A DNA stretch of 32,330 bases from Paludibacteraceae bacterium. Lineage in GTDB: Bacteria > Bacteroidota > Bacteroidia > Bacteroidales > Paludibacteraceae. Positions 1,656 through 29,244 of this stretch are shown here, one piece after another. The stretch covers positions 1 to 32,330 of the forward strand of contig CAJOPG010000075.1 of NCBI GenBank assembly GCA_905236355.1, written 5' to 3'. The stretch's first letter is position 1. Every line of letters starts with the position of its first letter. The notes under the pieces were generated by a model. That model saw only the letters and a list, made by a program, of their open reading frames with translations. It searched no databases and had not been told where the DNA came from. A program made the translations under genes and the position numbers.

Positions 1656-3574
1656 TGTTTGCTATTGAGAGGAATGATGATACTTGTAAGTGGTTCGATA
1701 GTGATAGTTTGTGACAAGTTGTATTCTTTACCGGAGATGAGGTCGGTTCCGTTGGTGTTGTAGTGGGCGAGTATCTCGTTGTAGTGTTCTGTGGGGATTG
1801 TGCGTGGTTGTGCGGAAGCATTGAGATAGACGAAGACGGCTTTGTCGTTGTTATAACGGAAATAGGCATAAGTATTGTCCCGGCTCATGAAGTGCATTGT
1901 TTTGCCGGTATGTATGACAGGTTCGTTCAGTCGCCATGTGAAGAGCCGACTTTGGAAGTCGAACATGTCTTTCTCATAGTCAGAGAGTTGGTTTTCTTGC
2001 GGGAGTGGTTGTCGCAGTCCGCTATGTCCGCGGCTGCGGTCCGCGCTTCGTTGCCCATATTCGTCTCCGGCAAAGAGTTGCGGGATGCCTCTCATGGTGG
2101 CAATGAGTGTCATAGCCAGTTTAACCCGCCGCGGGTCTTGGTCTTTCACTACATCGGCGATGCGGTCCATATCGTGGTTGCCGGCAAAGAGCAGTAGTTT
2201 GTTGACATCGGCATAGAGATAGTCTTGCGCTACAGCGTCATACACCCGAGTCATTCCGCCTCCCCAGAAGTTCCCGTCGTTCTCTAATGCTTGCCGGATG
2301 GCTTCCTCTACCGGGAAGTCCATCACAGTCGGCAGATAGGAGTTGAAGCCGTCTGCATTGTTGGCATCAGCCTGCCAATAGGCGACATTGGAAGCGGGTC
2401 GTGTCCAACATTCGCCTACGATGTTGAGGTTGGGGTATTCGTTTCGTATGGCTTTGCACCAGTCGGCAGCGGGTTGTTTCTCAATGTAGGGATATGTATC
2501 CACCCGCAGACCGTCAAGGTCGGCATACTCAATCCACCAGACGGCCCATTGTGTGAAATACTTGAGGAGGTCATTGTTTTCAAGGTTCATATCGGGCATA
2601 GGATGGTCGAACCAGCCGCGGTTGTTGAGACGTCGGTCGTATTCGGAGGCATTGGAGTCGTAGTTGGCAGAGAAAGCGTTGTTGGTATTGGTGAACCGGT
2701 CGAACTGATTGACCCAATCATGGTAGGGGAGGTCCTTCATCCACCAATGTGCTGCTCCGCAATGGTTCGGGACCATATCCATCAGGAATTTCAGTCCTTT
2801 CTCATGTGCTTTGGCCACCATAGTTTTGTAGAGGTCGTTGTCACCGAAGCGCGGGTCGATATGGTAGTAGTCGCTACAAGCATAGCCATGGTAACTCCAT
2901 GCAGCCTCGTCGTCCAAGAGCAGCGGTGTAGGCCAGATGGTGGTGGCGCCTAATGCCTTGATGTGGTCAAGTGAGTTGATGATGCCTTGAATATCACCTC
3001 CCCATCGTCCGTCCATATTGTTTTTATCACCTTTCTCGCGGGTGTTATCGGTAGAGTTGTTGCTTTCGTCTCCGTCCACAAAACGGTCAGACATAATCAG
3101 ATAGACCACATCTGCGGAGGTGAAACTTTGGCGTTCCCGACTTCCTTGCCGGCGTGTCTGGATATCATACAGCCACTTGGACTGTTTGTCGCCTTGCCGC
3201 AGTGTGAAGAGGTAGGTTCCAGCCTTTCGGGCATCCACATCAACAAACAGGTAGTTGGGACTTTCGGCATTGTGCTGTCCTTTGATTTTTAAGCCTTTCG
3301 TGTGACGGGTTTGATAGGCTTCCCACCAAGGTTTGTCGGTTGTTACATAGTTGATGCCGGTTACTTCCTCGACGCTGACTTGTGCATCCTGAAGGTCTTG
3401 CCCATAGAACATGATAGTGAGAGGGGTCTGCATGCCGGTCCACCAGCAGAGGGGTTCTGCCTTAAGGATTTCCGGTTGGGGGTTCTCCAGAGTGGGGATG
3501 TGTGTTCGCGGTTGCAGTGTGCAACCTGCGAGTGTTACAACAACAGCAATGGTGGTGATAAGTGTTTTTCTCAT
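1652..3574 (-). CDS. Alpha-amylase family (GH13) glycosidase, SusA/neopullulanase-like lipoprotein
   Basis: Start re-set to MRKTLITTIAVVVTLAGC (lipobox). GH13 motifs DMVPNHCG, GLRVDTYPY, VGECW, FAGNHDMDR; N-terminal Ig-like domain. Confidence 0.93.
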   Translation of the reverse strand: MRKTLITTIAVVVTLAGCTLQPRTHIPTLENPQPEILKAEPLCWWTGMQTPLTIMFYGQDLQDAQVSVEEVTGINYVTTDKPWWEAYQTRHTKGLKIKGQHNAESPNYLFVDVDARKAGTYLFTLRQGDKQSKWLYDIQTRRQGSRERQSFTSADVVYLIMSDRFVDGDESNNSTDNTREKGDKNNMDGRWGGDIQGIINSLDHIKALGATTIWPTPLLLDDEAAWSYHGYACSDYYHIDPRFGDNDLYKTMVAKAHEKGLKFLMDMVPNHCGAAHWWMKDLPYHDWVNQFDRFTNTNNAFSANYDSNASEYDRRLNNRGWFDHPMPDMNLENNDLLKYFTQWAVWWIEYADLDGLRVDTYPYIEKQPAADWCKAIRNEYPNLNIVGECWTRPASNVAYWQADANNADGFNSYLPTVMDFPVEEAIRQALENDGNFWGGGMTRVYDAVAQDYLYADVNKLLLFAGNHDMDRIADVVKDQDPRRVKLAMTLIATMRGIPQLFAGDEYGQRSADRSRGHSGLRQPLPQENQLSDYEKDMFDFQSRLFTWRLNEPVIHTGKTMHFMSRDNTYAYFRYNNDKAVFVYLNASAQPRTIPTEHYNEILAHYNTNGTDLISGKEYNLSQTITIEPLTSIIIPLNSKQ

Positions 3575-3597
3575 GGTTATGTGTTGTATATAAAGAG

Positions 3598-3637
3598 AAG
3601 GTGTCAGTCGGCCTATGATAGTACCGACTAACACCTT
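3598..3637 (-). terminator. Intergenic stem-loop
   Basis: Arms AAGGTGTCAGTCGG / CCGACTAACACCTT; the single mismatch is a G.U wobble in the minus-strand transcript, suggesting it acts after the 3649-5889 gene. Confidence 0.6.
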
Positions 3638-3648
3638 TGTTTTGTGGT

Positions 3649-5889
3649 TTATTCTGCAGTTTCTTCTGCAGGAACTTCTTCTGCTACAGGCACTTCTTCG
3701 ACCGCTGCTTCTTCTATTACCACTTCTTCAGCGGGTTTGTTGAAGCAGGGTAGCGGGGAGCGCAGTTTCTCGCTGCCGAGCATACCGCCGATATTGCCTA
3801 ACCAGAGTCCGCAGCATACGACTAAGGCACATGCAATGCCGATGCACCATCTCTTCCAAGGTGCCAAGCCTTTTTCTGCAAACGGGTCTTTGATTTTTAC
3901 AATGGGGAAGTTCACTTGGTCGGTGAGAGTAGCCCCGAATCGAATGTTGACGATGGAGGCCGCGTTGACAGCCCAACCGTTAGCATTGAGTATCGGTGCG
4001 ATGTTGCGTTTGCGCAGTTTGAGCCATGCCATTATCATGCTGGGACCTGAGATAAGGAGAATGATAACGACAAAAATCAGGATGTATTGCCACCATGTCA
4101 GTCCGGACAACCCTTTCCCAAGTGCGACAAGAGCGGTACCAATCATGCCTAATGCCATACCGATGGCAGCAAAGATACCTGCGAATTTGGCAATATCGAA
4201 CGGCATTGCAGCTTGTGGTTTTCCATCGGCTCCCACTGCCGGTTTTTCTTGCAGTTTAGCAGTGGTTTCCGACATCATCTTGGCATCTTTTTCCGCTGCG
4301 CGCTTGTTGATGAGGTCTTCCGCCCATTTTGCCAAGCGGCGGTAGGGTGACCAGAATGCCTGTTTGATACTGATGGGATTGTCGATAATCTTTGTGATGA
4401 CGGCATCGTAGTCGAGTCCGTTGCGGTCGTAGAAGATAGCATTTTTGCCGACATAGAGATCGCCTGTTTCACCCATTGTCATGGCGGCCACAATCTCTAT
4501 GGGAGCGGGCTTCTGCTTGCTGGTGCAGGTGCAGTAAATCAAATATATGCCACTGACGGGAGCCAAAGCTGCTTGTGCACCCGGGTTGGTGACGAGCATT
4601 GTCAGGTGGCAAGCACGCTGGTCAATAACCAATGTTCCTGCCTGGAAGATTGCCTTTACATTTTGGTCGGGGTCGTAGAAGTCCTGCAGGGTGATATAGT
4701 TTTTCAGTAGAGTATAGAAGTCGCGGTACAGGTGTGTGAGACGGTCGACGGCATCGATACCATTGGCTTCAGCCTCTAAAGCCTTGTCTTGCTCTACCAA
4801 TTCGAGCAACGCAGTTTTCTTGTCAGCTTTCAGCAAAGCTTCTATACACTCCATGCCAAGGCTCTCAACGGCGGCTCCGGCTTTGGCACCTTGCCATGCG
4901 GTGTATGCCGCAAAGGCAGCGCCTATCTCGTTCCATTCTTCCTCACAGAGGGTTTTCTTTTTCTTGTCAACGGCAATAGCTTTCAGTGTTTCAAATTGAC
5001 TTGCCCAAGCGGGGTTGAATGGAGCGTTGAGGTCAAGTTCCGCCTTGCCGGTGATTCGTTGCAATGGGTATGAGGCAATCTCGTCACCTTTTTCAGTCAG
5101 GTTGTCGGCAGAGATGGCCTCTATTCGGCTTACCTGCACATCCAACGCTGCAGTGCTGTCCTGATTGAAAGCGGCCAAGCGCGAACGGAGGAAGAAGTCT
5201 TTCACTTTGGCATTGAGGGCACAGAAGAGTTCTAAGCCCTTGTCGGTATCTTCTCCGTAAGGCAGTTCGGGTTTGGCTTCTTGCCATGCTTTATATTCAT
5301 TCAGTGCAGTATAGAACGCTTCAATCTGGTCGGCATTAACTCCTTGAGCGCCGCTGCGGTCCATACTGCCACCAGTAGCGGCAATAGCTGCTGCGATGGT
5401 CTTTTGCAAGTCTTCATCGGCAGTGGAGCCTTCGGTGATGATGCCATCGCCGTTGAACTGTGTTTGGGCAAATATGGCGATGCTGTCAGACGAATCGGCT
5501 ACTGTGATAACTTCGTCTTCTTTCTTTAGATTTGCCAGTATCTGCTTGGCACTGGCGTAGAGTTGTTGCCCTTCTTCGCTGTCTTGATTGATGTTGCTCA
5601 GAGCGATTCCGTCTTCGCTGTGCAATAGAGTGTCAGCATCTCTCACTACATTGGTCAGCCAGTTGGCGGTGTTTACGATATCGTTTACATGAATTTTGCC
5701 ATCGGCATCGGTATCTGCATATTTCAAACTCTTACTGTCGATTTCTAACCCCGAAGTGGGACAGGAGAGTATAGTCCACATTTTCTGGTCCAGTTCACCG
5801 AGATGACGCAGGTCTTCACCTGACTGAATTTTCACGCGGGTCGCTCCCCCAATATTCTGAAACGCCCACTTGTAATCGTTGTTTTTCAT
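3649..5889 (-). CDS. Large uncharacterised protein with EF-hand-like motifs, C-terminal TM segments and acidic tail
   Basis: 746-aa ORF; DTDADGKIHVNDIV and NGDGIIT calcium-loop-like motifs; hydrophobic segments near the C-terminus; tail EEVVIEEAAVEEVPVAEEVPAEETAE. Confidence 0.85.
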   Translation of the reverse strand: MKNNDYKWAFQNIGGATRVKIQSGEDLRHLGELDQKMWTILSCPTSGLEIDSKSLKYADTDADGKIHVNDIVNTANWLTNVVRDADTLLHSEDGIALSNINQDSEEGQQLYASAKQILANLKKEDEVITVADSSDSIAIFAQTQFNGDGIITEGSTADEDLQKTIAAAIAATGGSMDRSGAQGVNADQIEAFYTALNEYKAWQEAKPELPYGEDTDKGLELFCALNAKVKDFFLRSRLAAFNQDSTAALDVQVSRIEAISADNLTEKGDEIASYPLQRITGKAELDLNAPFNPAWASQFETLKAIAVDKKKKTLCEEEWNEIGAAFAAYTAWQGAKAGAAVESLGMECIEALLKADKKTALLELVEQDKALEAEANGIDAVDRLTHLYRDFYTLLKNYITLQDFYDPDQNVKAIFQAGTLVIDQRACHLTMLVTNPGAQAALAPVSGIYLIYCTCTSKQKPAPIEIVAAMTMGETGDLYVGKNAIFYDRNGLDYDAVITKIIDNPISIKQAFWSPYRRLAKWAEDLINKRAAEKDAKMMSETTAKLQEKPAVGADGKPQAAMPFDIAKFAGIFAAIGMALGMIGTALVALGKGLSGLTWWQYILIFVVIILLISGPSMIMAWLKLRKRNIAPILNANGWAVNAASIVNIRFGATLTDQVNFPIVKIKDPFAEKGLAPWKRWCIGIACALVVCCGLWLGNIGGMLGSEKLRSPLPCFNKPAEEVVIEEAAVEEVPVAEEVPAEETAE

Positions 5890-26049: not shown

Positions 26050-27378
26050 CTACAATAGATTTGCCATATAAATGGGAAGATATGTAGTAGTGTTATCGGT
26101 TTGATAGTCTTTAGTGTAGAGTAAGAAGCGTTCACCGATGCGCTCGTGAAACTTAAGACAAAAGGCATCCAATGATTTATGTGCCTTGTAACCTGAGGAT
26201 TTGACCTCTATCGGTATGAGTTTGTATCCACGCGAAAGAAGAAAATCAACCTCGTAATTATGATTATTGCCATCGGGAAACGTATAATAGAATAGTTCGT
26301 TGCCGGCAGTGCGAAGCATCTGCGCCACGAGATTCTCATATACAAAGCCGAGGTTGACAGATAATTTATCACTTAATAGTTTGTTATAAATAATATTGTC
26401 TGTACTATCTCTATCCATAAACGCTAATGTGATAAATAGTCCTGTGTCACCCATAAACATCTTGTATTTATTAGGTTCTTTGCTAAGTGCCATTCCTACA
26501 TTCGGGTCATTGGCTTGATATGCCATATTGATGACCAAACTATCTTCCATATCTGCAATGATAGTATCTAACATAGCGGAGGCGCGTTTGTCAGTTGTGG
26601 TGGCAATTTTCAGTGAGGATGCGTGTGATGTCAGTTGTGATGGTATATTACGGAAAATTCGAGAGGCTGTACCGGTTGTGTCTATTTTACGAAAATCATC
26701 ATCATATAGTTCAAGTATCTTGCGCTTTACTATATCCACTTGTCGCAAATTATTAGTAGTGATGTATTCGTAAACAGCTTGTGGCATGCCACCAATAAGC
26801 ATATATAGCCGTAAATCGCGCATCCACTTGCGATGTACGGCTTCTCCTACAGCTTTTTTCATCAGAAAAGCCTGACGGATGCCAGCGCTACTTACCTCAT
26901 CACCAACTGCCCAACGAAATTCTTCATAGTCCATAGGATAAAGCCTTAATCGATGTTCTTCCGAGGGGATAACGATATTCTTTACATTGCGCTTGAGAGT
27001 AAGTAGCGAGCCTGTTTCTATGTAATCATATCTGCCATCTTTTACTAAATGCTTGATGGCTTGACGAGCGAGAGGTTGCAATTGTACTTCATCAAAAATG
27101 ATAACAGACCGATGCTCGTAAAGTGTTACTTGAAAGATGTTTTGTAGGCGAAAGAAGAAATAGTTAAGGTCGTGCATATCGTTGAATAACTCATCAATCT
27201 CATCATATTTTTGCGAGAAATCAATAAGTATATACGAATCATATTCTTTCTTTGCAAACTCCTCAACGAGTGTGGATTTTCCAACCCGTCTTGCCCCTTG
27301 AATCAGTAAGGCATAACGATTCGACAGTTCTGCTTTCCAGTAAAGCATGTCGTCATATAACTTGCGTCTAAATACCAT
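26050..27378 (-). CDS. AAA ATPase with DUF4143 C-terminal domain
   Basis: Start re-set to MVFRRKLYDDML. Walker A LLIQGARRVGKST, Walker B VIIFDEVQ, ETGSLL, C-terminal NYEVDFLLSRGYKLIPIEVKSS. Confidence 0.92.
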   Translation of the reverse strand: MVFRRKLYDDMLYWKAELSNRYALLIQGARRVGKSTLVEEFAKKEYDSYILIDFSQKYDEIDELFNDMHDLNYFFFRLQNIFQVTLYEHRSVIIFDEVQLQPLARQAIKHLVKDGRYDYIETGSLLTLKRNVKNIVIPSEEHRLRLYPMDYEEFRWAVGDEVSSAGIRQAFLMKKAVGEAVHRKWMRDLRLYMLIGGMPQAVYEYITTNNLRQVDIVKRKILELYDDDFRKIDTTGTASRIFRNIPSQLTSHASSLKIATTTDKRASAMLDTIIADMEDSLVINMAYQANDPNVGMALSKEPNKYKMFMGDTGLFITLAFMDRDSTDNIIYNKLLSDKLSVNLGFVYENLVAQMLRTAGNELFYYTFPDGNNHNYEVDFLLSRGYKLIPIEVKSSGYKAHKSLDAFCLKFHERIGERFLLYTKDYQTDNTTTYLPIYMANLL

Positions 27379-27409: not shown

Positions 27410-27440
27410 CAAAGGTATAATAAAGTTTTTACTCCGCAAA
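27410..27440 (-). promoter_or_regulatory. Promoter of the DUF4143 ATPase gene
   Basis: Minus strand TTTG-N19-TACCTTTG; the -33 TTTG lies inside the innermost 33-bp-spaced repeat. Confidence 0.75.
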
Positions 27441-27510
27441 ATGTTTTAGGGCATGAACTACATTTTTCGCAAAATGTTTGTGCCCTCAAACTACATTTCC
27501 CGCAAAATGT
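27435..27510. repeat. Three CGCAAAATGT repeats at exact 33-bp spacing, two within palindromes ACATTTT-N4-AAAATGT
   Basis: CGCAAAATGT at 27435, 27468, 27501; palindromes 27460-27477 and 27493-27510. Confidence 0.95.
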
Positions 27511-27520
27511 GAGTGCTTTT

Positions 27521-29244
<1,724 letters not shown>

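Follow-up and report, generated by a model that had tools for sequence, protein, structure and literature searches.

The stretch analysed here, referred to as the window, is the 32,330-nucleotide contig CAJOPG010000075.1 of a Paludibacteraceae bacterium. It carries a gene for PDC-S01, an AAA+/DUF4143 protein classed by PADLOC as a widespread phage-defence candidate with a putative anti-phage role, and three direct repeats at exact 33-base-pair (bp) steps cover the promoter of that gene. Relatives of this gene have in common the geometry of three sites at 33-bp spacing and the co-variation of the repeats with a predicted winged helix in the protein, but not the sequence of the repeats. Probably the PDC-S01 protein binds these phased repeats as operators and through them represses its own gene. 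The operator-like array is new, a literature search for such repeats having found nothing relevant, while the PDC-S01 family itself was already known. The repeats and the promoter lie as follows.

27489..27510, minus strand: repeat copy 1, ACATTTTGCGGGAAATGTAGTT, farthest from the gene
27456..27477, minus strand: repeat copy 2, ACATTTTGCGAAAAATGTAGTT
27423..27444, minus strand: repeat copy 3, ACATTTTGCGGAGTAAAAACTT, containing the TTTG that is the -33 element
27410..27440, minus strand: Bacteroidota-type promoter, TTTG-N19-TACCTTTG, with the -33 element at 27440-27437 and the -7 element at 27417-27410

The array spans 27423-27510. On the plus strand CGCAAAATGT begins at 27435, 27468 and 27501, two steps of 33 bp, and the 11-mer family D2, beginning at 27434, 27467 and 27500, marks the same three copies. 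A sequence-only reading of this DNA had noticed the exact 33-bp spacing, the innermost copy that supplies the -33 TTTG of the promoter, and a pair of complementary motifs, AGGGCA at 27448-27453 and TGCCCT at 27481-27486, and all of these are present as it described. The three-copy score of the array is 40.9, against a mean of 9.2 and a maximum of 21.7 for dinucleotide shuffles. Across the 1.86 Mb genome, a pair of CGCAAAATGT 10-mers 20-50 bp apart occurs solely at this array, and ACATTTTGCGNNAAATGTAGTT, with at most one mismatch allowed, is found only at these copies. We rejected an array of clustered regularly interspaced short palindromic repeats (CRISPR): the copies are three and degenerate, their conserved core is only ~11-22 nucleotides long, and the flanking genes are the ATPase and its upstream neighbour, an esterase ending at 27521.

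On the minus strand (27423-27645) the reading frame through the array stays open because 33 bp is 11 codons, and translation gives a false start for a 531-residue open reading frame with TFCGKC/TFCEKC repeats. The sequence-only reading had linked such repeats to false N-termini of related ATPases. The window does have the open frame, whereas most homologues carry a stop shortly upstream, so these false N-termini would be a side effect.

The protein that would read the repeats is encoded just downstream of them, from a start codon at 27378-27376.

26050..27378, minus strand: PDC-S01 gene, 442 amino acids, AAA+ (AAA_14), winged helix and DUF4143 (PD-(D/E)XK type), from Pfam, PADLOC and the structure model
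26443..26694, minus strand: winged-helix codons, residues 229-312 of the predicted structure, with the third helix at 264-279 and strands at 283-289 and 300-309
26053..26442, minus strand: codons of the PD-(D/E)XK-like domain, with E348, E376/D378 and E391-x-K393 conserved

The family models match the protein across its full length: PADLOC assigns it to PDC-S01 (model PDLC04786, E 2.6e-90), and Pfam AAA_14 and DUF4143 both exceed their cut-offs. An AlphaFold2 model built with 102 aligned homologues (predicted local distance difference test 89.5, predicted template-modelling score 0.90) divides it into an AAA+ domain (residues ~1-175), a set of helices (~176-228), the winged helix (~229-312) and a PD-(D/E)XK-like domain (~313-442); a solved structure was sought for close relatives of the window protein, and none was found. 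The Walker A and B and PD-(D/E)XK residues are intact, with G33, K34, D96, E97, E348, E376/D378, E391 and K393 invariant or nearly so. PDC-S01 is reported to rank fourth in prevalence among prokaryotic defence systems, and most PDCs still await validation (PMC12988326). The literature we found covers the prevalence and domains of PDC systems, and describes no mechanism for PDC-S01 (PMC12988326, PMC13356809, PMC10855318).

Phased repeats recur upstream of the homologues. The DNA upstream of the 29 best homologues in the genus contains three direct repeats in nearly all cases, with differing sequences. The survey covered bacterial members, and many of the compared sequences are metagenome assemblies. 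A period-free detector (16-60 bp) run on 210 unique genes gives a best period of 32-34 bp in 197 without any score cut, while shuffles have flat periods; an array-based search supplied 50 of the 210, and these do not count as unbiased evidence. If an array must have three copies, a period of 32-34 bp and a score exceeding the 99% threshold of shuffles, it is present at 74 of 87 genus homologues, at 53 of 59 homologues in genomes reached through array hits, and in 6 of 11 members of a plasmid set. Control genes, from loci picked independently of arrays and with PDC-S01 excluded by a single model, yield one array in 172, and that exception adjoins the array of a PDC-S01 ATPase (L048). At array-selected loci, divergent neighbouring genes share PDC-S01 arrays. 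Within an array the cores are 70-95% identical between copies and the spacers only 0.37-0.44, against a background of 0.28. With cores alike and spacers diverged, the pattern is that expected of separate binding sites held at fixed spacing, and recent tandem duplication was rejected.

The repeat sequence itself is private. The sequence-only reading had proposed autoregulation by the ATPase at several operators, to be checked by aligning the upstream regions of homologues for ACATTTTGCG(N)AAAATGT. Of 393 genomes of the order, only two contain that motif, the window's genome among them, and the check alone would have seemed to tell against the proposal; given this rarity, sequence conservation is the wrong test. 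The proposal instead draws strong support from array geometry and from co-variation with the modelled winged helix. A nucleotide search with the window's upstream region mostly returned -7 promoter matches at other genes. Genome G571 has twelve paralogues, each with its own core, and G561, G441, G582 and G583 are similar; comparing repeats within and between genomes, we saw no clear extra divergence beyond that of the proteins.

The evidence that ties these private sites to the protein is co-variation. We compared pairwise repeat similarity with identity in each protein segment, corrected for the rest of the protein. The partial correlation is 0.52 for the winged helix, -0.23 for the AAA domain, -0.14 for the helical segment and 0.03 for the nuclease, and the signal forms a single block at residues 229-315, with the best windows at 259-276 (the third helix) and 295-312 (the wing). 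Each repeat copy taken singly still yields 0.40-0.46, spacer DNA, as a control, yields 0.05, and the association persists in sets thinned to <60% and <50% identity. With disjoint pairs (~82), in which no lineage is counted many times, the partial rho for the winged helix is 0.59 (median p 7e-9). Linkage or co-inheritance is not the cause: the codons of the AAA domain separate those of the winged helix from the array, yet they have no positive association with the repeats. The DNA-binding domain of the product, as predicted from the model, thus appears matched to the sites of the array. Since site and winged helix change together, each gene lineage or paralogue has its own repeat sequence.

These observations bear directly on two other accounts of the array. 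One of them, that a different regulator of the host binds the array or that a neutral tandem repeat simply accompanies the gene, is very improbable. Some loci do have arrays without the gene, as such an account would allow. Against it, repeat similarity follows the winged helix encoded by the same gene and not the AAA part encoded in between, the cores are conserved and the spacers are not, and the layout recurs in several phyla. Least credible of all is an RNA element, either leader hairpins or, as the sequence-only reading had offered as an option, a structure at the 3' end of the esterase transcript. One group of homologues has its array after the -7 box, in the leader, and AGGGCA and TGCCCT are able to pair in the window. 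The fold, however, is not significant (z = -1.6), the pairing motifs are confined to non-conserved spacers, and the arrays of the window clade, the window's own included, lie upstream of the promoter; the co-variation with the winged helix also speaks against RNA. Nor are palindromes conserved. The window has them in the two gene-distal copies (27460-27477 and 27493-27510), as first noted, and the gene-proximal copy is not palindromic; over 133 homologous arrays the mean palindrome score is 2.95, against 3.02 for shuffled cores, which makes the 7.3 of the window exceptional and rules palindromy out as a family feature. On fold and palindromes together, a leader RNA structure or attenuator was rejected.

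Repression of PDC-S01 by its own product is favoured by where the arrays sit. A TAnnTTTG promoter is recognisable in 119 of 133 homologous upstream regions, compared with 21% of shuffles, and the arrays cluster at a few distances from it. In the window clade they lie over the -33 element or immediately upstream of it; elsewhere they span the promoter or follow closely on the -7 box. With multiple sites spaced by whole helical turns at a promoter, they have the form of a phased-repeat operator. The winged helix of the PDC-S01 protein would read the repeats at its own gene's promoter, with several protomers lined up along one face of the DNA (33 bp makes three full turns of the helix). Bound there, they would mask the -33/-7 promoter or the start of the transcribed region. 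The gene would then repress itself, and the ATPase-nuclease would be kept low until something, perhaps infection, releases it. Because occlusion fits all three array placements and activation only the first, we infer that control is negative. As site and winged helix change together, each lineage or paralogue would come to have a private, largely non-crossing circuit. The DUF4143 ATPase gene TT_P0211 of Thermus thermophilus HB27 is listed as changing 6.6-fold when a plasmid is present (PMC4406477), which fits regulated expression of such genes.

The same placements allow a different use of the bound array. It might mainly hold the ATPase-nuclease parked or licensed, as a scaffold or titration site from which the protein is freed on infection, with transcription control secondary. 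The three-site geometry does persist at differing placements relative to the promoter, conserved PD-(D/E)XK residues make the protein a presumed nuclease, and its structural relatives, at low template-modelling scores, include DNA-assembling STAND and origin-binding AAA+ proteins. But with 119 of 133 arrays at a recognisable promoter, and at few distances, operator function is the simpler account, and we regard a primary parking role as unlikely.

The layout extends well beyond the genus. A gene-agnostic search of 84,980 species genomes with the pattern GGAAAAGTGT-N20..26-GGAAAAGTGT returned at least 120 stretches, to which 9 viral stretches were added, giving 129 array loci. Among the matches listed, the spacings are 33 (171), 32 (24), 34 (1) and 35 (1), with none at 30, 31 or 36; at 68 of the 129 loci the start of a PDC-S01 gene follows downstream on that strand, no more than 400 bp away; and the hosts include Bacteroidales, Collinsella, Clostridia, Bacilli, Acholeplasmataceae and one alphaproteobacterium. 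The same layout is found across several phyla. It is also plasmid-borne, in Segatella (two), Prevotella, a plasmid listed as Agathobacter (four copies), Collinsella (four copies at 33), Glaesserella parasuis (32/33) and Vescimonas (42), and a Parabacteroides member has two sites 66 bp apart on either side of the promoter. The member WP_006848557.1, from a plasmid of Segatella copri DSM 18205, has its array in L178. The Fusobacterium, Ruminococcus and Acinetobacter examples tested had no significant three-copy array.

Other PDC-S01 subfamilies have comparable arrangements. A second PDC-S01 gene in the window genome (G000:C108, subfamily PDLC04787) has a 32-bp array, and most of its 28 testable homologues carry three copies at 32-33 bp with differing cores. 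In subfamily PDLC04790 (alphaproteobacterial plasmids and locus L084) the arrays are often at 22 bp, and several members tested had none. By eye, a Rhizobium sp. K15/93 plasmid (L422) has about five ATTAACRTTYNGCCA-like motif copies 22-23 bp apart upstream of its ATPase gene. Since spacings of 22, 32-33 and 42 are all whole helical turns, the sites fall on one face of the DNA.

Some arrays stand alone. At roughly 44 of the 129 loci, among the matches listed, the available sequence is long enough to show a neighbouring PDC-S01 of this model, and none is there. At five (L200, L210, L283, L287 and L290), only the C-terminal 25-80 residues of PDC-S01 remain, 12-85 bp after the array, which looks like repeated internal deletion beginning at the array; because these fragments directly follow, some gene-less arrays are remnants of lost genes. 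In L200 and L210 the junction is at TTGGAAA, common to the repeat and the nuclease-motif codons. Genomes with gene-less arrays have PDC-S01 elsewhere in 24 of 25 cases, usually without a second strict copy of the motif pair. At L190 and L286, PDC-S01-type arrays lie directly upstream of other ATPases (by eye archaeal-ATPase-like and OLD/AAA_15-like), which perhaps share the sites or took the place of a PDC-S01 gene since lost. The array of L218 (2632-2674) is inverted, upstream of a more distant AAA_14-type gene (2828-4006), so array orientation relative to the gene can flip. Four Collinsella genomes (L193, L209, L238 and L259) share an identical three-copy array with no downstream PDC-S01 of this model. 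Five IMG/VR viral contigs (L307, L309, L313, L314 and L315) hold GGAAAAGTGT arrays of two copies 33 bp apart, and no PDC-S01 gene adjoins them. The array is the same in L309 and L315; these arrays are possibly decoys, remains or the phage's own sites. A bolder idea, to which we give only a small chance, is that the array is a self-address as well as an operator: AAA+-nuclease protomers would gather on the three sites private to their gene, the array would determine whether they are parked, armed or cutting at that place, and gene-less arrays, viral ones included, would be decoys, targets or scars of such events.

Several observations weigh against autoregulation as we propose it. About 15% of genus homologues have no detectable three-copy array, and some arrays have no adjoining PDC-S01 gene. 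Array position relative to the promoter varies, and activation is possible in some members. Single-residue association also ranks residues outside the winged helix (E412 and Q79, for example), and the identification of the winged helix between the AAA+ and PD-(D/E)XK domains depends on prediction.

Autoregulation through a private array would give PDC-S01 a testable handle, namely DNA read by the protein and predictable from any member's promoter. It would account for a dozen copies in one genome without obvious crosstalk, and the many natural pairings of protein and site in the family could be used to learn a recognition code for winged helices.

Compared with PDC-S01 as published, the window gene is a member to which an operator-like array is added. 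Autoregulators with phased direct-repeat operators are familiar as iteron-type and tandem-site repressors. The PDC-S01 arrangement resembles them in having direct repeats at whole turns over its own promoter and a product with a predicted DNA-binding domain, but the binder here would be a defence-candidate AAA+ nuclease, and the site differs nearly gene by gene. Winged helices attached to an AAA+ or STAND ATPase are likewise known, from the Orc1/Cdc6 initiators on origin repeats and from MalT and other STAND proteins, and Foldseek matches our model to 2qby and 8bob, with whole-chain template-modelling scores of only ~0.26-0.29. Unlike these proteins, PDC-S01 has a fused PD-(D/E)XK-like domain, and its candidate sites lie at the promoter of its own gene.
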